A stretch of 64,000 nucleotides of DNA. It comes from Methanocalculus alkaliphilus (GTDB taxonomy: Archaea; Halobacteriota; Methanomicrobia; Methanomicrobiales; Methanocorpusculaceae). The stretch covers positions 186,001 to 250,000 of the forward strand of contig NZ_JALJYG010000001.1 in NCBI RefSeq assembly GCF_024170505.1. The letters are read 5' to 3'. The translations under genes and the position numbers were made by a program. Shown piece by piece: positions 32,797 to 40,715 of this stretch; the first letter of the stretch is position 1, and every line of letters begins with the position of its first letter. The notes under the pieces were generated by a model. It saw only the letters and a program-made list of their open reading frames with translations, was not told the DNA's origin and did no database searches.

Positions 32797-34917
32797 GTGA
32801 CAGACGTCTTCTCCCGGCTTCATCCCACCCTCCGTGAAGCCCTCATCTCCACCCTTCGCTGGGATGCATTCCGTGCGGTTCAGGAGGAGGCGATCAGGGC
32901 ATTCTCTGCGGGATCGGATCTCGTCATCCTTGCACCGACCGCAGGGGGGAAGACCGAATCCGGCTTCTTCCCTGCACTTGACGATCTCCTCAGGAGCGGG
33001 GGGGAGGGAGTCTCCATCCTGTACATCTCCCCGCTCAAGGCACTCATCAACGATCAGCTCGAACGGATCAGCAGGATCACCCGGCCGATGGGGGTTGAGA
33101 CGGCTGCCTGGCATGGGGACATCAGCCGGACTGAACGGCTCTGGCAGGAGGGGGAGGCACCCGGAATCCTCCTCACCACCCCCGAGTCGCTGGAGGTCCT
33201 CCTCGCCGATCCCATCCGTTCTTCTGATCTGGCAGGCCTCAGGACGGTGATCATCGATGAGATCCATGCCTTCATCGGGACTGATCGCGGGGTGCACCTC
33301 CGCTGCCTCCTCGACCGGCTCGAACTCCGGACCGGGGAGAGGATCCGGAGGATCGGCCTCTCTGCAACCATCGGGAACCCGGATCACCTCCTTGAATGGC
33401 TCTCTGAACCCACGCGGCCGCGTCAGCTGGTCCGGGTCCCCTCCCCCCCTGCGAAGAAGAGGTTCTCGTTCTCCATTGAGGAAGAGGAGGAGAGACGTTT
33501 TCTGGCTGTTGCAAGGGCGATCAGGGGGAAGAAGGCACTCGTCTTCGTTCAGAGCCGTTCCGCTGCCGAGAGGCTGCATGCGGGTCTTGCAACCCTTGCC
33601 GGGCCGGTGGATGTCCACCATTCTGCGATCTCACCGGATCTGCGGCATGCGGCAGAGGCCCGAATGGCCGGAGAGGGGAGTGCCTGTATCATCTGTACCG
33701 GAACACTTGAGCTTGGGATCGATATCGGAGGGCTGGATGTCGTTGTGCAGTACGGCCCTCCTGACTCGGTTGCATCCTTCCTCCAGCGGCTCGGCAGGGC
33801 CGGGCGGAGGGGGAGGCCGGCAGAGATGGCATGTATCCTCTCCAGCGGGGAGGAGGCGCTCATTGCGGTTGCTGCCATCGAGGCGGCACGCCATCATGAG
33901 GCGGAGCCATTGATCGAGCCGCAGTTCCCCTGCCATGTCTTTGTCCAGCAGCTTCTCCTCCTGCTGAAGGGAGGGAAGGGGATGGGGGAGGCAGCCATCA
34001 GGAGAAGGCTCCTCTCGTTCCCTGCATTTGCAGGTATCAGCCATTCTGATGCCGGTGTGATCATCAGCCATCTCCTTGCCACAGACTACCTTCAGAAGGA
34101 CGGCGATCTTATCGCTATCGGACCTGCTGCTGAGGCCCGGCTCTCCCGATCTCACTGGATCGCCCTCTGTTCGGTGATATCAGCGAGAGGGGGATACCGG
34201 GCAGTCACCCCGGATGGCGAGGTGATCGGGACCCTCGATCCGGCCTTCGTCGGGATTGCACTCTCTGAAGGGTTCACCCTTGCAGGGCGAAGCTGGCGGA
34301 TCATCTCCTCTGATGATGAGCGGCGGGGGCTTCTCGTCATCCCGTCAGAAAGAAGAGGTCCCCGGCCTTTCTGGATGGGGGGAGGCACCCGGGGCATCTC
34401 ACCCCTCCTTGCCCAATCGGTTGCGAGGATAGCACAGCGGAGGAGATCGGATCTCCCGCTCGATGATGCCGTCAGGGAGGCGATCCATGATGCCATCTTC
34501 TCATGGCCGGATGGTATCGGGCCCGGCCGGATGATGATCAGCGGAGAGCCCCTGCCGGAGGGAAGCCTTCTCTCGATATGGACGTTTCTGGGCGAGCAGC
34601 AGAACGCAACACTCGCCCATCTTCTTCGGCATCACCTGCCTTCAGGCCGGCAGATCGAGACCGGGCCGTATGCCGTTGCCATCACCATACCGCCGGAAGA
34701 GGACGGGAAGAAGGCGGCCGTCCGGGCACTTCACCAGATCACCGCCCTCACCCCTGATGGGGCAGCGGCCCTGCTCTCGCTCCCCCCTCCCGGAACATGG
34801 GCATTTGACACCCTCCTTCCGGATGATATACGTCGCCGGATGGCCGCCAGTGATATCTATCACGTCCCGGATCTGATCGCCTGGATCAGGGCATCTCTTC
34901 CTCTTGAGGAAACCTGA
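32797..34917 (+). CDS. Lhr-like DEAD/DEAH-box helicase
   Basis: 706 residues. Superfamily 2 motifs: Walker A APTAGGKTES (46-55), DEIH box (154-157), LSATIGNP, GTLELGIDIGG, and QRLGRAGRRG. The C-terminal winged-helix and Lhr-type domains follow to the end. Lhr-family enzymes are 3'-5' helicases of DNA or hybrids; classical Lhr core is larger (~850-900), so this is a shorter relative. GTG start; an ATG 26 bases upstream is out of frame. The 3' end overlaps the convergent kinase gene by 32 bases. Confidence 0.88.
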   Translation: MTDVFSRLHPTLREALISTLRWDAFRAVQEEAIRAFSAGSDLVILAPTAGGKTESGFFPALDDLLRSGGEGVSILYISPLKALINDQLERISRITRPMGVETAAWHGDISRTERLWQEGEAPGILLTTPESLEVLLADPIRSSDLAGLRTVIIDEIHAFIGTDRGVHLRCLLDRLELRTGERIRRIGLSATIGNPDHLLEWLSEPTRPRQLVRVPSPPAKKRFSFSIEEEEERRFLAVARAIRGKKALVFVQSRSAAERLHAGLATLAGPVDVHHSAISPDLRHAAEARMAGEGSACIICTGTLELGIDIGGLDVVVQYGPPDSVASFLQRLGRAGRRGRPAEMACILSSGEEALIAVAAIEAARHHEAEPLIEPQFPCHVFVQQLLLLLKGGKGMGEAAIRRRLLSFPAFAGISHSDAGVIISHLLATDYLQKDGDLIAIGPAAEARLSRSHWIALCSVISARGGYRAVTPDGEVIGTLDPAFVGIALSEGFTLAGRSWRIISSDDERRGLLVIPSERRGPRPFWMGGGTRGISPLLAQSVARIAQRRRSDLPLDDAVREAIHDAIFSWPDGIGPGRMMISGEPLPEGSLLSIWTFLGEQQNATLAHLLRHHLPSGRQIETGPYAVAITIPPEEDGKKAAVRALHQITALTPDGAAALLSLPPPGTWAFDTLLPDDIRRRMAASDIYHVPDLIAWIRASLPLEET

Positions 34918-37000
34918 CCTTCCAGCATGTCCCGCCCCCATCGCGCCCTGACCACGAGAAGACCCCCCCGATCTGCCGGGAGAGCCGCCTGACAAGTTCG
35001 ATCCCGAGCCCCCCTTTATTGCCAGACTGGAAATCCGGAGGGAGGCCGATGCCGTCGTCCTCAAGGATCAGGGAGAGGAGGCCGTCATCTTCCTTCCAAA
35101 GCGAGAGGATGATCGCTCCCCCGGAGCGGCCGGCAAAGGCATGTTTTAAGGCATTTGAGAGGAGCTCGTTGATGATCAGGCCGCAGGGGACGGCGATATC
35201 GATATCAAGGGAGATCTCCTCTATCCGGCAGGTGAGGGTGATCCCTTCAGGTGAGCCATAGGACTGCATCACCTCCTCAGCAAGGCGTCCGATATAATCC
35301 CGGAGATCTATCCGGGAGAGCGCCTCCGAACGGTAGAGCGTCTCATGGACGAGTGCCATGGAGGTGATCCGGTTCTCGCTCTCCCGGAAGATCCCGGCAT
35401 GCTGGTCATCCCCAAGGGCAAGAGCCTGAAGGTGCAGGAGTGAGGTGACGATCTGCATATTATTCTTGACACGGTGATGAACCTCCTTGAGAAGTGTCTC
35501 CTTCTCCTCAAGGCCTTCGGAAAGGCGCTGGATCATCTTCTGCTCCTCGGTGATATCGATCAAAGTGACGATCACCTGCCTGCTCTTTGGGAGCGGGGCA
35601 AATCTTCCAATGAGGATCCGCTCTCCTCCATTCTCCCGGATGATCGATGCCCTGATCTGCGGGTTCGCACGATCATCCCTGGCACTGCATGAGGAGAGTA
35701 TCGCCGCAATCTCCTCACGGTATGATTCCGGGAAGAGGAGGGGGAAGAGGCGGCCTTTCAACATATCAGGCAGAATCAGAGTGAGCCGGAAGAAGCCATC
35801 ATTCACAAGGGTTATTGTTCCGTCTGCCTCAAGGAGGGCTGTCGGAGTGCTGACGCCATAGAAGAGGGTCCGGTAGAGCTCCTCAGAATGGCGGAGGTCC
35901 TCCTCCATCCTGATCTGATCGGTGATATCCCGCATAATCCCGGATATCGCGATGATGGATCCATCTTCATCGAGGACCGGGGCGATGGAGAGGGCAAGCT
36001 GGATCTTCTGCCCCGAACGATGAAGCCGGTTTATCTCCCTCCGCTGCGGCTTTTTTCTCGCAACCACCTCAAAGAAGTATGATCTGAAGATGGCACGGTC
36101 TTCAAGTGGGATGATCCGCTGATAGTCGGTGCCGATCATCTCCTCCGCACTCCACCCAAAGATCTTCTCAGCCCCTGCATTCCAGCTGAGGACCTTTGCA
36201 TCGGTGCTGAGACTGATGATTGCGTCATCTGAGTATTCAACGATCGAAGCAAGGAGACGCCGGGTCTCGTCTGCCATCTTCCGGGCGGTGATATCGCGGC
36301 CTATCCCCTCGATGGCGATGAGAATTCCTTCTTTGTTATAGATCGGAGTGTTCTTCTGTTCAACCCAGATGACGGAGCCATCCTTTCTGATCCAGCGGAG
36401 GATGATCGGTTTGTTCAATCCTCCATCCCTTTTTACATTCATGAGGGTGTGGCGATCATCAGGGTGGACTATCTGAAGACCAAGCTTTGGATTTTCGTAA
36501 TGTTCTTCGGGGGTGTACCCGGTGATCCAGGTTGCAGCAGGATTGACATATGCAAACCGTTCTTCCGGAAGAAGGTCAAACCTGTAGATGAGATCCTCTG
36601 CATTATCGGCGAATTTTTTATACTGCAACCTGCTCTCGTACAGGTGATCTGAAAGGAGACCGACGATTCCGCCGACCCCGGCCATCACAATGGATCTGAA
36701 GAGGGCATCGATGAGGGCGGATGGTTCAGGGAGGATGATCCCATGCAGGAGGAGGTACGTTCCGGCAAGGAGGGTCCCGAAACTGACTCCGTCCTGCCTG
36801 TACCGGTATGCTGCAAGGATGATCGGGATATAGAAGAGATGTGGATAGACATTCGTCTTCCCGGCCTGCAGGAGCATGATGGTTGCGAGGATGGACAGGG
36901 CCGAGGTGATGCCGATGATTGCAATCCAGAGATCGGGAGTCTTCTGCCTTCCATTCAGGGGAAGAAGAAGGCTTTGATTATCCTTGCCAGGTTTCTGCAT
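34886..37000 (-). CDS. Membrane-bound PAS histidine kinase (HisKA_2 type)
   Basis: 704 residues. N-terminal membrane domain (about 22-140, with FYIPIILAAYRYRQDG, a pattern shared with the kinase at 52,525), three PAS domains (about 150-265, 270-390, 395-515), a HisKA_2 phosphoacceptor (EVHHRVKNNMQIVTSLLHLQ) and a complete HATPase: INELLSNALKHAF, EDDGIGLP and GGLGIELVRRL. All catalytic boxes look intact. Ligand unknown. Divergent from the winged-helix pseudokinase gene, so it is a possible partner for the receiver at 38,235. Confidence 0.9.
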   Translation of the reverse strand: MQKPGKDNQSLLLPLNGRQKTPDLWIAIIGITSALSILATIMLLQAGKTNVYPHLFYIPIILAAYRYRQDGVSFGTLLAGTYLLLHGIILPEPSALIDALFRSIVMAGVGGIVGLLSDHLYESRLQYKKFADNAEDLIYRFDLLPEERFAYVNPAATWITGYTPEEHYENPKLGLQIVHPDDRHTLMNVKRDGGLNKPIILRWIRKDGSVIWVEQKNTPIYNKEGILIAIEGIGRDITARKMADETRRLLASIVEYSDDAIISLSTDAKVLSWNAGAEKIFGWSAEEMIGTDYQRIIPLEDRAIFRSYFFEVVARKKPQRREINRLHRSGQKIQLALSIAPVLDEDGSIIAISGIMRDITDQIRMEEDLRHSEELYRTLFYGVSTPTALLEADGTITLVNDGFFRLTLILPDMLKGRLFPLLFPESYREEIAAILSSCSARDDRANPQIRASIIRENGGERILIGRFAPLPKSRQVIVTLIDITEEQKMIQRLSEGLEEKETLLKEVHHRVKNNMQIVTSLLHLQALALGDDQHAGIFRESENRITSMALVHETLYRSEALSRIDLRDYIGRLAEEVMQSYGSPEGITLTCRIEEISLDIDIAVPCGLIINELLSNALKHAFAGRSGGAIILSLWKEDDGLLSLILEDDGIGLPPDFQSGNKGGLGIELVRRLSRQIGGVFSWSGRDGGGTCWKVRFPQEEEMP

Positions 37001-37027
37001 CAGGTATATCGATCTCTGTCAGTATCG

Positions 37028-37072
37028 GTTCTTATATGCATCGACATGGTGATGAGCAATCTTATTGTAACA
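37028..37072. promoter_or_regulatory. Divergent promoters of two sensor genes
   Basis: TTCTTATATGC (37,030-37,040) gives, on the minus strand, a box GCATATAAG about 30-35 bases before the ATG at 37,000. ATCTTATTGTAAC (about 37,058-37,070) is the best plus-strand candidate for the gene at 37,102. Confidence 0.4.
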
Positions 37073-37101
37073 GGGCACCAAAGATATCCTTGACGATTGC
37101 G

Positions 37102-38238
37102 ATGCACGATGATCATGAAGAATACCTGACGACAATCCTTGAGCTCTTCAGAAATGAGCCACGTGGGATGAGTATCAGTGATATATCCCGTGAGATCGGG
37201 CTGAACAGAAACTCAGTCTCAAAATATGTCAATATGCTCACCATTGCCGGGAAGATCGAGATGAAGGCGGTCGGTCCTGCGAAGGTCTATTTCCTCTCCG
37301 AACGGGTTCCGGTCTCTGCGATGATCGAGTTTTCATCTGATGGAATTGTCCTCCTTGATGACCAGCTCCGGATCGTCAATGCCAATGATCAGTATCTCTC
37401 CTTAACCGGGGCAGGCAAAGGAGACGTCCTCGGTGAGAAGATCAGGGGATCAACCCTCCCAATCCTCTCAACTGATCCCTTCCTCTCCTCGATTCCGAAG
37501 TTTGGGGAGAAGGAACAGAAGATTACCGACCATATGGTGATGATCAATGGGGAGGAGAGGATATTCACCATCAAGATCCTCCCGGCTGCCTTTGAGGGGG
37601 GCAAGGCAGGATATGCAGTCATCATCGAGGAGACGACGGAGAGGAGAGCGGCAGAGGAGACGATCAGGTCCGCACTCGCCGAGAAGGAGGCACTCCTCAG
37701 TGAGCTGCATCTTCGGATCAAGAATAACCTTCAGCTGATCGCAAGCCTCATCAGCCTCCAGATGATGGAGAGCCCGGATGACACCGTCAATGCCGCCCTG
37801 AGAGAGACACAGAACCGGATCATCTCTCTCTCCATCGTCCATGAACATCTCTATGCCCGCTCAATGGTCGCGGAGGTGGATATCGGGGAGTACCTCACCC
37901 TCCTCATCTCAGAACTCCGGCGATCATTTGAGCTCCCTGACAGGGCGATCACCCTCTTGGTCATGGATGAGGGGATACACCTCAGTACTGACCGTGCCAT
38001 CGCGCTTGGCCTGATTACAAATGAACTGGTCACCATCGGTCTTGAATCCGGAGAGGAGCCGGATATCAGGATCGCCATCTCCCGATCCGATGAGGGGCAT
38101 ATCCTCAGCATCATCCCAGGTGCAGGCACGCACGAGCCGGAGGGGCTCTCGATCAATATCGTCAGAAGGCTCGTCAAAAGGGAACTCCAGGGAGAGTTCG
38201 GGATCGTGCCGGATGGATGGGAGGTCAGGTTTCCGTGA
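37102..38238 (+). CDS. Winged-helix/PAS protein with degenerate histidine kinase domain
   Basis: 378 residues from the ATG giving MHDDHEEYL; the longer frame upstream runs through the promoter. Residues ~1-70 are a winged-helix domain (GMSISDISREIGLNRNSVSKYV, split over two helices), ~80-190 a PAS domain, then HisKA_2 (ELHLRIKNNLQLIASL) with its His kept. The HATPase part is broken at key sites: the N-box Asn is replaced (NELVTIGLES instead of NELLSNALKH) and the Asp box DDGIG reads PGAG. It should therefore not phosphorylate in the usual way. The same wHTH-PAS start is found in the protein at 45,854. Likely a signal-controlled DNA-binding regulator. Its stop overlaps the next gene (GTGA). 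Confidence 0.85.
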   Translation: MHDDHEEYLTTILELFRNEPRGMSISDISREIGLNRNSVSKYVNMLTIAGKIEMKAVGPAKVYFLSERVPVSAMIEFSSDGIVLLDDQLRIVNANDQYLSLTGAGKGDVLGEKIRGSTLPILSTDPFLSSIPKFGEKEQKITDHMVMINGEERIFTIKILPAAFEGGKAGYAVIIEETTERRAAEETIRSALAEKEALLSELHLRIKNNLQLIASLISLQMMESPDDTVNAALRETQNRIISLSIVHEHLYARSMVAEVDIGEYLTLLISELRRSFELPDRAITLLVMDEGIHLSTDRAIALGLITNELVTIGLESGEEPDIRIAISRSDEGHILSIIPGAGTHEPEGLSINIVRRLVKRELQGEFGIVPDGWEVRFP

Positions 38239-38615
38239 CCGGGAATGAGTCGAGGCTCCGGTTCTTCATCGTTGAGGATAACGCTATCATCGCCTTTGAT
38301 CTCGAACGGAGGGTTGAAACCCTCGGCCATACCGTTGTTGGCTCAGCAGACACCGCAGAGACGGCGATCAGAGGAATCCTCGAGACCCTGCCGGACTGTG
38401 TCCTTATGGATATCAGACTGAAGGGTGAGGGTGACGGGATCATGGTTGCAGAAGAGATACAGAGGACCTCACCCAGACCAATCGCCTTTCTGACGGCATA
38501 CTCTGATAAAGGGATGCTGCAACAGGCCAGGGCCACCGGGCCGACAGCATGTATCATCAAGCCGGTCCGGGATCAGGACCTCCACCAGCTCATCTCCCGT
38601 ATCCGATCAGGCTGA
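38235..38615 (+). CDS. Receiver-only response regulator
   Basis: 126 residues, a single CheY-like receiver: acidic pair in FIVEDNAI, phospho-acceptor Asp in VLMDIRLKGEGDG, Thr/Ser position in AFLTAYSD and conserved Lys in CIIKPVRDQD. No output domain. GTG start overlaps the upstream stop by four bases, with GGAGGT ten bases before it. Tight coupling to the winged-helix pseudokinase suggests they act together; the phosphate source may be a kinase nearby (34,886 or 38,619). Confidence 0.88.
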   Translation: MTGNESRLRFFIVEDNAIIAFDLERRVETLGHTVVGSADTAETAIRGILETLPDCVLMDIRLKGEGDGIMVAEEIQRTSPRPIAFLTAYSDKGMLQQARATGPTACIIKPVRDQDLHQLISRIRSG

Positions 38616-38618
38616 TGC

Positions 38619-40715
38619 TCAGGCACGCCTGAGCGTGATGATGAACCGTGCACCTTCTTCCGGATGACCGGGTATCCGATCAGTAACCCCGATCGTCCCG
38701 CCATATCGCTCCACAAGCTTATTGACGATGAAGAGGCCGAGCCCTGATCCGGATCTGCTCGTTGCACCCTTCCTGTGCCGATCCATCACCTTTGTCTTGA
38801 GTTCATCAGGAATGCCGGATCCGGTATCGGCAACAGATATGATAGCGTCATCACCATTCTCCATAACGGTGATGAAGATCTCTGTTCCGGGACCTCCATG
38901 CCTGATGGCATTGCCGATGAGGTTGGTGAAGATCTCAGCAATGAGATCATCGGCGAGGACGGAGAGATCCGTCCCATGATATTCGATACCAACCCCGTCC
39001 CGATGGCGAATCTCCCGCATGATGATGGGATCAAGGGGGGTTCTGGTGAGGCGATCCCGTCGGGATCTCAGGTTCCTGAGTGTACTGACATCCCGGATGA
39101 TCTCCGCATTCTTCACCAGGCAGTCGATGATCCGGGTGAGATACCCCTCCGCCGATCCCAGGTCACCATCCCTGAGCATCTCGGTGTACCCCATTGCAAT
39201 TGCATTTGAGTTATTGATATCATGGGACATGATATCGACAAAGAGGGAGAGATCCTCGTAGGCGAGGGCAAGCTCCTCACGAAGATAGCTCCGTTCGAGA
39301 TAGGTACCGACCAGGTGCGAGGCGACGGCAGCCATCTCCCGCTCATCCGGAGAGAACGGCTCATCCGATATCCTTCTGAGGAGGAGGAGGCCGCTCCTCC
39401 CCTCTCCTGCATCGAACCGGCTGATGATCGTCAGGGGATCCGTTTCATTCCCGGAGCAGGCGGGATCCCGGACAGCCGGATCTGAGGTACCGGGGGGATG
39501 GAGGAGGAGATCCCCTGTGGAGGAGGGGATCTCCCCTGTCAGTACCTCAATCACCTCAGGAATGACCGTCTCCGGGGGATCGACACCGGAGGTCAGTGCA
39601 AGAATCCTGTTTGTGAATGAGAGATACCGGAGATGGCGCCTGACCGCCTCATCAGCCTCTTTCTTCCGGGTGATATCGATATTGACCCCGATGAACCGAT
39701 CCGGTCTGCCATCCAGATTGAAGAGGATACGGCCACGATCCTCCCACCATCGGAGATTCCCCCCCTTATCAACGACACGGTATCGTATTGTGAACGGCTC
39801 CCGGGAGATGCGGTGCCTCTGAAAGGCTGCATATATCGATGCCAGATCGTCCGGGTACACAAGTGAGCGCCACCCGTCTATACTTCGTGGTATTTCACCA
39901 GGCTCATAGCCGAGATGTTCATCGATCGGTCCGAACCACTGGACCACCCCGGTCTTCAGATCGATCTCATAGATGAAGTCACCGGCTGATTCGGCAGCGA
40001 TCCGGAACCGCTCCTCAGACCGGGCGACTGCCTCCTCGGCACGCCTGCCACCGGTCCTGTTGTAGCCGACACAGAGGATCTCCCCGGCTGACCCGACCGG
40101 TGTCGCGATCCATGATGTCCATGCTGTATCACCGTCTCTTCGTCTACAGGCAAATTCACGCCAGACGATCTCCGCCTTCTTCTCCCGGGCATCCCGGATG
40201 AGGGAGTCGAAGGTTGCCACTGACTCCTCATCCGGAATGAGAAGGGATCCGGGATCCGATCCCTGCAGCTCATCCTGCGTATATCCGAAGAATGATGCCG
40301 CAAACTGGTTGACAAAGACGATCCTGCCGTTCTGGTCAAGCACCATGATGAGATGGATGGCATGGAGAAGCTTCCTGTAGGCCTCCTCCGGAGCACCCTC
40401 AATCTCAGGGATTCCGGCTGTTTTCATGGTGAGGATGGACCAGCCGGGATAGCCGGGATTTTGGACGGCACGAACCGTGCCAGAGAGGATGGAGATACCA
40501 TCCTTGTGGTAGTGAGGAATAACAAGATCCCCTGGCAGGGGAGGTCCTTCACGGGCGCAGAAGCTATGATCCCGGCTCCCGGTCAGCTCTGCGAGGACCT
40601 GATGGCAGCTCATCCCGATGAACGCCAGAGCAGGTCGCCCGGCCAGATCGCCGCATGCCTTATTTGCCATCATGACCACGCCTATCGGGTCAAAGACCAG
40701 CATCGGATCGCTCAT
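38619..40715 (-). CDS. PAS/GAF histidine kinase
   Basis: 698 residues, soluble. PAS domains at about 1-110, 118-240 and 245-365 (third with WWEDRGRILFNLDGRPDRFIGVNIDIT, split), a GAF-like stretch at about 370-480, a HisKA region with FVDIMSHDINNSN, and a full HATPase: NLIGNAIRHG, DTGSGIP and GSGLGLFIV. The catalytic boxes are intact. The MSHDINN pattern is common in methanogen kinases. Convergent with the receiver gene, three bases apart. Confidence 0.88.
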   Translation of the reverse strand: MSDPMLVFDPIGVVMMANKACGDLAGRPALAFIGMSCHQVLAELTGSRDHSFCAREGPPLPGDLVIPHYHKDGISILSGTVRAVQNPGYPGWSILTMKTAGIPEIEGAPEEAYRKLLHAIHLIMVLDQNGRIVFVNQFAASFFGYTQDELQGSDPGSLLIPDEESVATFDSLIRDAREKKAEIVWREFACRRRDGDTAWTSWIATPVGSAGEILCVGYNRTGGRRAEEAVARSEERFRIAAESAGDFIYEIDLKTGVVQWFGPIDEHLGYEPGEIPRSIDGWRSLVYPDDLASIYAAFQRHRISREPFTIRYRVVDKGGNLRWWEDRGRILFNLDGRPDRFIGVNIDITRKKEADEAVRRHLRYLSFTNRILALTSGVDPPETVIPEVIEVLTGEIPSSTGDLLLHPPGTSDPAVRDPACSGNETDPLTIISRFDAGEGRSGLLLLRRISDEPFSPDEREMAAVASHLVGTYLERSYLREELALAYEDLSLFVDIMSHDINNSNAIAMGYTEMLRDGDLGSAEGYLTRIIDCLVKNAEIIRDVSTLRNLRSRRDRLTRTPLDPIIMREIRHRDGVGIEYHGTDLSVLADDLIAEIFTNLIGNAIRHGGPGTEIFITVMENGDDAIISVADTGSGIPDELKTKVMDRHRKGATSRSGSGLGLFIVNKLVERYGGTIGVTDRIPGHPEEGARFIITLRRA

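Follow-up and report, generated by a model that had tools for sequence, protein, structure and literature searches.

The window, a stretch of 64,000 nucleotides of the Methanocalculus alkaliphilus genome, contains a locus that we interpret, with a probability of roughly 0.55, as a split transcriptional response regulator, in which the signal would pass from a histidine kinase to a free-standing receiver, then to a DNA-bound pseudokinase, and finally to a promoter. The central component (37102..38238, + strand; hereafter the 37,102 protein) is a DNA-binding pseudo-histidine-kinase of 378 aa made of HTH, PAS, DHp and degenerate ATPase domains, as seen from Pfam, the family alignment and an AF2 model. 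Among 35 relatives, the same architecture, the lost phosphoacceptor and a neighbouring receiver gene are each found in 34 or 35, which is more than chance. The broader claim, that these methane-producing archaea have a family of transcription factors in which a non-catalytic kinase core would link a stand-alone receiver to DNA by serving as the module on which the phosphorylated receiver docks, we judge to be about evenly balanced.

A kinase-like core on a winged-helix protein

The preliminary description of this locus had assigned a winged helix, a PAS domain and a HisKA_2 domain to the 37,102 protein, and all three are confirmed by matches to HTH_IclR, HTH_24, PAS_4 and HisKA_2 above the Pfam cut-offs. 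The winged-helix domain spans residues 1-66 (37102..37299, +), as delimited by Pfam and the alignment, and is followed by the PAS domain (residues 67-185; 37300..37656, +; Pfam) and by the helices of a HisKA_2-type DHp domain (residues 186-260; 37657..37881, +), assigned by Pfam and visible in the AF2 model. The match to HisKA_2 (PF07568) has a value of 9.5e-22 in this protein, and the same model is matched in all 30 members included in alignment A1.

The C-terminal part (residues 261-378; 37882..38235, +) corresponds to a degenerate ATPase (CA) domain with a shortened ATP lid, in which no HATPase match was obtained with Pfam. Comparison with the neighbouring kinase bears out the earlier claim that both the Asn and the Asp boxes are lost: the N box reads ELVTIGLES versus ELLSNALKH in the neighbour, with Ile312 in place of the Asn, and the D box reads GAGTHEP, followed by a deletion, versus DDGIGLP, with Gly340 in place of the Asp. 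A PAS-kinase fold with an ATPase-like domain is still seen in the AF2 model. The CA domain of VraS is matched with a Z score of 15.7 over 120 residues at 2.2 A, and the top structural match is EL346, with a Z score of 15.9 over 218 residues and a large rmsd that is due to a different placement of the domains; the models used represent single chains and have a moderate confidence (pLDDT 75 and 78). NifL and RetS are found among the fold matches only, and so is DivL. The nearest NCBIfam model is that of PhyK, with a score far below the curated cut-off.

Purifying selection is seen in each of the four domains of the Methanocalculus gene. With respect to the closest species, dN/dS is 0.15 over the whole gene, and 0.04 in the HTH, which is the part under the strongest constraint, 0.08 in the DHp, 0.14 in the CA and 0.25 in the PAS domain, values that were obtained by a counting method from a single pair, more distant pairs being near saturation.

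Phosphoacceptor and ATP site across the family

In 199 genomes of the order we identified 34 full-length relatives (the window's protein included) that run from the HTH through the ATPase domain. Together with one member that is split in two (G007), this makes 35 members in 35 genomes, belonging to families f1, f2, f4 and f5 (f1 to f6 are labels for families within the order). In the split gene (L175:2867-4085), HTH-PAS and PAS-DHp-CA are encoded by two pieces that are not in the same frame, and the receiver and kinase genes still adjoin it. In a phylum-wide search of 392 genomes, the only full-length matches were 20 from this order, in addition to the split G007; E values then dropped from 7e-145 to 1e-78, and the lower matches covered a PAS-kinase or an HTH-PAS part only. 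A first quick tree with every second canonical row did not recover the pseudokinase family as one clade; in a second tree, with every third canonical row, holding the family together scored better (p-AU 0.81), which is no proof of a clade.

The acceptor His of the 37,102 protein had been described as kept, and this has to be corrected. His203 (p-1) sits one residue before the acceptor position of HisKA_2 kinases (p), which is occupied by Leu204 (37708..37713, +, from the alignment). The H-boxes can be aligned without gaps, and read ELHLRIKNN in the 37,102 protein, EVHHRVKNN in the neighbouring kinase and EVQHRVKNH in EL346, the canonical HisKA_2 kinases that we compared having E[VI]HHRVKNN. 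Of the two His residues of HHR, EL346, a protein of solved structure, shares just the second with the canonical motif, and we take it to be the EL346 acceptor, H142, which agrees with the numbering (position 148 of the chain, with an offset of six residues). In RT-HK, a member of the HWE/HisKA2 group, an H152A mutant of the predicted acceptor is reported to lack autophosphorylation (PMC12148442).

The acceptor position is occupied by a residue other than His in 34 of the 35 family members (Gln 14, Leu 9, Tyr 6, Met 3, Ile 1, Phe 1), the exception being G148, from a fragmented f5 genome, which has HHR and hence a His at the acceptor place. HHR has been either retained or regained in this member (L181:6046-7302), which nonetheless clusters with the Tyr and Phe members of f5. 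Outside the family, the acceptor His is found in 114 of 121 distinct HisKA_2 domains that have letters at that place, two truncated domains having been set aside. The seven non-His rows are L082, L083 (with which its near-copy L084 is counted), L177 and four stand-alone degenerate proteins. L082 and L083/L084 are HTH-PAS-PAS proteins with a degenerate DHp, according to domains assigned without a Pfam scan, so that the trait reaches a further family.

Two other groups of degenerate proteins were observed along the way. In the HTH-PAS-PAS proteins of f6 (L082, L083, L084, L196, L197), GNR or NYR replaces HHR in the DHp, and CheW- and MCP-like genes adjoin their genes, as judged by eye. In some f2 genomes, a stand-alone protein of ~215 aa that begins with a degenerate HisKA_2-like stretch (HRGVADDL or HKDVAGDL) is encoded downstream of the pseudokinase gene, at a distance of 4 to 5 kb (L039:11161-11796, L041:12141-12782, L042:12551-13198, L183).

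Around the lost acceptor, the DHp of the family keeps a basic residue at p+3, a Ser at p+11 and a Gln at p+16, each in 34 of 34 rows. The Arg or Lys at p+3, Lys207 in the 37,102 protein, is also present in 114 of 115 canonical rows (a set that includes the G148 member), and is therefore not specific to pseudokinases. These retained residues, which are common to active kinases, may serve folding and dimerisation, and are no proof of docking.

Concerning the ATP site, a survey of orthologues for the same lost boxes, proposed in the preliminary description, gives a divided picture: the loss extends to all four Methanocalculus members, but the boxes are mostly kept outside this genus. Most members from f2, f4 and f5 still have recognisable N and D boxes, and in alignment A1 HATPase_c is matched in 25 of the 30 proteins and HATPase_c_2 in 26. 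Because 34 of the 35 members are without the acceptor His and ATP-site motifs mostly persist outside Methanocalculus, the loss of the acceptor is old and family-wide, and that of the ATP site recent and local. Such an order of events speaks for a kinase fold that has been put to a new use and not for one in decay. ATP binding may still matter outside Methanocalculus, given the motifs kept there.

Receiver, kinases and divergent promoter

The gene that follows the pseudokinase gene (38235..38615, +) encodes an intact receiver-only response regulator, with Response_reg as its sole domain and all five catalytic residues (the acidic pair, Asp, Thr and Lys). Among NCBIfam models, that of the PhyR receiver comes nearest, with a score far below the curated cut-off. 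From a GTG start at 38235 the product would be 126 residues long, and from an ATG that lies upstream at 38217 it would have 132 residues. The four-base overlap of the two genes that had been described holds if GTG 38235 is the start, but not with the alternative ATG; in the M. chunghsingensis relative an ATG is found at the same -4 place. The receiver gene of G012 (L038, around 7199, in a reverse-complemented locus) has a CTG at the expected start, and no ATG, GTG or TTG there.

An intact receiver-only gene adjoins the pseudokinase gene in all 35 loci, across the four families, and the acidic pair, Asp, Thr and Lys are complete in every one of the 35 receivers. The gene is downstream and codirectional in 27 loci (f1, f2 and f4), and convergent in the eight f5 loci, where it is therefore not co-transcribed with the pseudokinase gene.

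On the other side of the pseudokinase gene, and divergent from it, lies the gene of an intact PAS-HisKA_2-HATPase kinase with HHR and both N and D boxes (34886..37000, -; Pfam and motifs), which we consider the most likely phosphodonor for the receiver. A HisKA_2 kinase gene is divergent upstream in 29 of the 35 loci and convergent downstream in two more, and none was found in the locus stretch examined for the remaining four (L050, L051, L053, L192). HHR is present in all 17 divergent kinases that were checked by motif. The window's genome encodes three HisKA_2 proteins, two of which are at this locus. A circuit joining receiver and pseudokinase to either the 34,886 or the 38,619 kinase had been proposed, and it is the former that belongs to the conserved unit. 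The 38,619 kinase falls outside the core, its cluster (c8) being found beside the gene in three of the four Methanocalculus loci and in two others, out of 21 compared. It is a PAS kinase (38619-40715, -) with a HisKA match below threshold and a full HATPase, a domain that is above the Pfam cut-off in both kinases.

Further genes accompany the divergent kinase in some families. MCP and/or CheW genes lie in between, as part of the divergent cluster, in the f4 loci and in most of those of f5; both kinds were observed with the HisKA_2 kinase, beside the pseudokinase, in L044, L048, L049, L054, L055, L180 and L188-L190. A chemoreceptor-type input to a non-CheA kinase is possible in these clusters. 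In some f2 genera the divergent cluster contains archaeosortase A genes, often two (L043, L045, L046, L047, L050, L051, L175, L191, L192), and the three that we scanned were all above the TIGR04125 cut-off. Their position, divergent to the pseudokinase gene, suggests that the regulator may control surface-protein anchoring at these loci.

In the window, the genes of the 34,886 kinase and the pseudokinase are separated by a divergent promoter region of 101 bases (37001..37101). No operator was recognised in the Methanocalculus promoters, where the half-site of the other families occurs with 2-3 mismatches at best. The divergent promoter contains in f4 a 22-base palindrome, TGCCTATCAATATTGATAGGCA, and in f5 the palindrome ATATGCATGCATAT. 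Their presence at these promoters is by construction, since the patterns were read from them, and the real test is their single place per genome together with their absence from non-carriers. With up to three mismatches, the f4 palindrome has one site per genome, at the divergent promoter, in 6/6 carriers, and none in six non-carrier genomes of the same genus label. With up to one mismatch, the f5 palindrome is found in 8/8 carriers, only at the divergent promoter, where two of the genomes have an overlapping pair of copies, and in none of eight non-carrier genomes. Conserved promoters alone could yield the same result. In f2, GC[AC]TATCAA is conserved upstream of the pseudokinase gene in eight loci. 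Over all 35 upstream stretches, which were anchored at the starts of BLAST matches so that f2 sites can be missed, the half-site gave 10 matches versus 44 in 1400 random stretches.

A proposed split regulator and its relatives

The loss of the acceptor and the presence of an adjacent free-standing receiver lead us to propose that proteins of the 37,102 type probably read the receiver and signal to the promoter. The intact 34,886 kinase would autophosphorylate and then phosphorylate the lone receiver at 38,235, which in its phosphorylated form would dock on the 37,102 protein at its DHp helices, as DivK~P does on DivL. Having no acceptor His and, in Methanocalculus, no ATP site, the 37,102 protein would neither phosphorylate nor, probably, dephosphorylate the receiver, but would read it instead. 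Docking, perhaps tuned by the PAS domain, may alter DNA binding by the winged helix at the divergent promoter, a site suggested by the co-occurrence of palindromes in two other families, and might thereby control two operons, that of the pseudokinase itself and the divergent one of the kinase.

Alternatively, the 37,102 protein could be a one-component transcription factor that senses through its PAS domain, retaining the DHp-CA part as a relic for dimerisation only, with the receiver acting elsewhere. Proteins that match only the HTH-PAS part (1-200) are in fact common in the order, the HTH is the most constrained part, and the CA domain decays in Methanocalculus. We nevertheless regard this as unlikely in view of the intact receiver that adjoins the gene in 35 of 35 loci from four families, and of the tighter constraint on the DHp than on the PAS domain when the closest pair is compared. 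Simple decay of the Methanocalculus copy would account for the lost ATP site and for a CA domain with only 42% identity to that of G012, and orthologues with normal N and D boxes, which the preliminary description took as a sign of decay, do exist. However, the relatives are acceptor-less too and purifying selection acts on all four Methanocalculus domains, which argues against mere decay; with an open frame in 4/4 Methanocalculus carriers, the receiver kept alongside and a dN/dS that, in the closest pair, is 0.15 for the gene and 0.14 for the CA domain, this explanation is hardly credible.

Two further readings would involve phosphate chemistry on DNA. His203 might serve as a p-1 phosphoacceptor that exchanges phosphate with the receiver, making the protein a DNA-bound, Spo0B-like phosphotransferase or a shifted kinase. 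A His at p-1 is indeed present in 35/35 members, and a role in phosphotransfer has been suggested for kinase-like proteins that lack the HATPase but have a His (Galperin et al., 2018; PMC5847659). Conservation of the p-1 His is not distinctive, because 114/115 canonical rows (including the G148 member) have a His at p-1 as well; with Gln at p-1 in EL346 and Gln, Leu, Tyr, Met, Ile or Phe filling the acceptor position in the family, this reading is decidedly doubtful. The phosphate transfer to a kept His that had been envisaged is therefore unlikely, His203 being off the acceptor position and the acceptor being absent in 34/35 members, while the reversed two-component arrangement of which it formed part retains a precedent in DivL/DivK for a receiver read by a pseudokinase (PMC4211667). 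Finally, an acceptor-less DHp might dephosphorylate the receiver, the protein acting as a DNA-bound phosphatase or sink and the main output of the receiver lying elsewhere, e.g. in an MCP/CheW system. CheW and MCP genes in the divergent cluster of f4 and most f5 loci would fit such an output, and phosphatase activity has been raised for related proteins (PMC5847659), but acceptor-less DivL is described as having none (PMC4211667), and the HTH and the gene-linked palindromes would be left unexplained, so that we hold a phosphatase to be very improbable.

A split regulator would bear on a general question of archaeal signalling. Most archaeal response regulators are without DNA-binding outputs and about 40% are receiver-only (Galperin et al., 2018; PMC5847659), most of the latter lying outside any conserved neighbourhood, and interaction between the products of receiver and HTH genes is, in that account, still to be shown. 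The pseudokinase family offers a receiver/HTH pair in a fixed neighbourhood (35/35 loci), with a plausible kinase and a plausible docking domain, to which f4 and f5 add a candidate operator. If true, the split regulator would explain how some receiver-only regulators control transcription in archaea.

The DHp-CA part of the family is of the same type as in EL346 and the PhyK-PhyR system (HWE/HisKA_2). EL346 is an active kinase with an acceptor His, as is PhyK, whereas the acceptor is lost in the family. Spo0B and ChpT keep the acceptor His and have lost the ATPase; the 37,102 protein differs from such DHp phosphotransferases in having Leu204 at the acceptor place.

The closest functional parallel that we can propose is with DivL of Caulobacter, a pseudo-histidine-kinase described as devoid of kinase and phosphatase activity, whose DHp binds DivK~P so that the flow of information is reversed, and in which R553, three residues past the replaced acceptor, is required for DivK binding (PMC4211667). 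Like DivL, the family has a replaced acceptor His (Tyr in DivL and in 6/34 family rows) and keeps the DHp fold, and by analogy it would share with DivL-DivK a single-domain receiver partner, poor or absent use of ATP, and, as a working model, a reversed flow. Unlike DivL, it has a HisKA_2 DHp fused to a DNA-binding winged helix, in archaea, and its gene adjoins those of its receiver, the binding of which we infer, and of an intact kinase.

Among archaeal proteins, RdmS and MsmS (MA_type 2) of Methanosarcina acetivorans are likewise kinase-like and have no H-box acceptor, and RdmS binds and hydrolyses ATP with no autokinase activity (PMC11784639). In contrast to the pseudokinase family, RdmS is an orphan cytoplasmic protein, and neither a winged helix nor an adjacent receiver is described in the part of that report available to us. 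The HATPase-less kinase-like proteins of Methanomicrobia (Galperin et al., 2018; PMC5847659) are nonenzymatic and come from the same class, but they have kept the His and lost the ATPase, whereas the pseudokinase family lost the His first and mostly keeps the ATPase. We found no description of a transcription factor that carries an acceptor-less HisKA_2 core and has a receiver of its own in the accessible text of the literature searched, which lay mostly outside subscription journals. LtrR (HTH-REC) and FilR1 (wHTH-DUF1724-REC) similarly place a winged helix under a receiver downstream of a kinase (PMC5847659), but in these the receiver is fused to the winged helix, whereas here two separate genes would be connected through a kinase-derived module. 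Receiver-reading pseudokinases, HTH-REC regulators and acceptor-less archaeal kinases are thus known already, and what appears to be new, judging from the literature searched, is their union.
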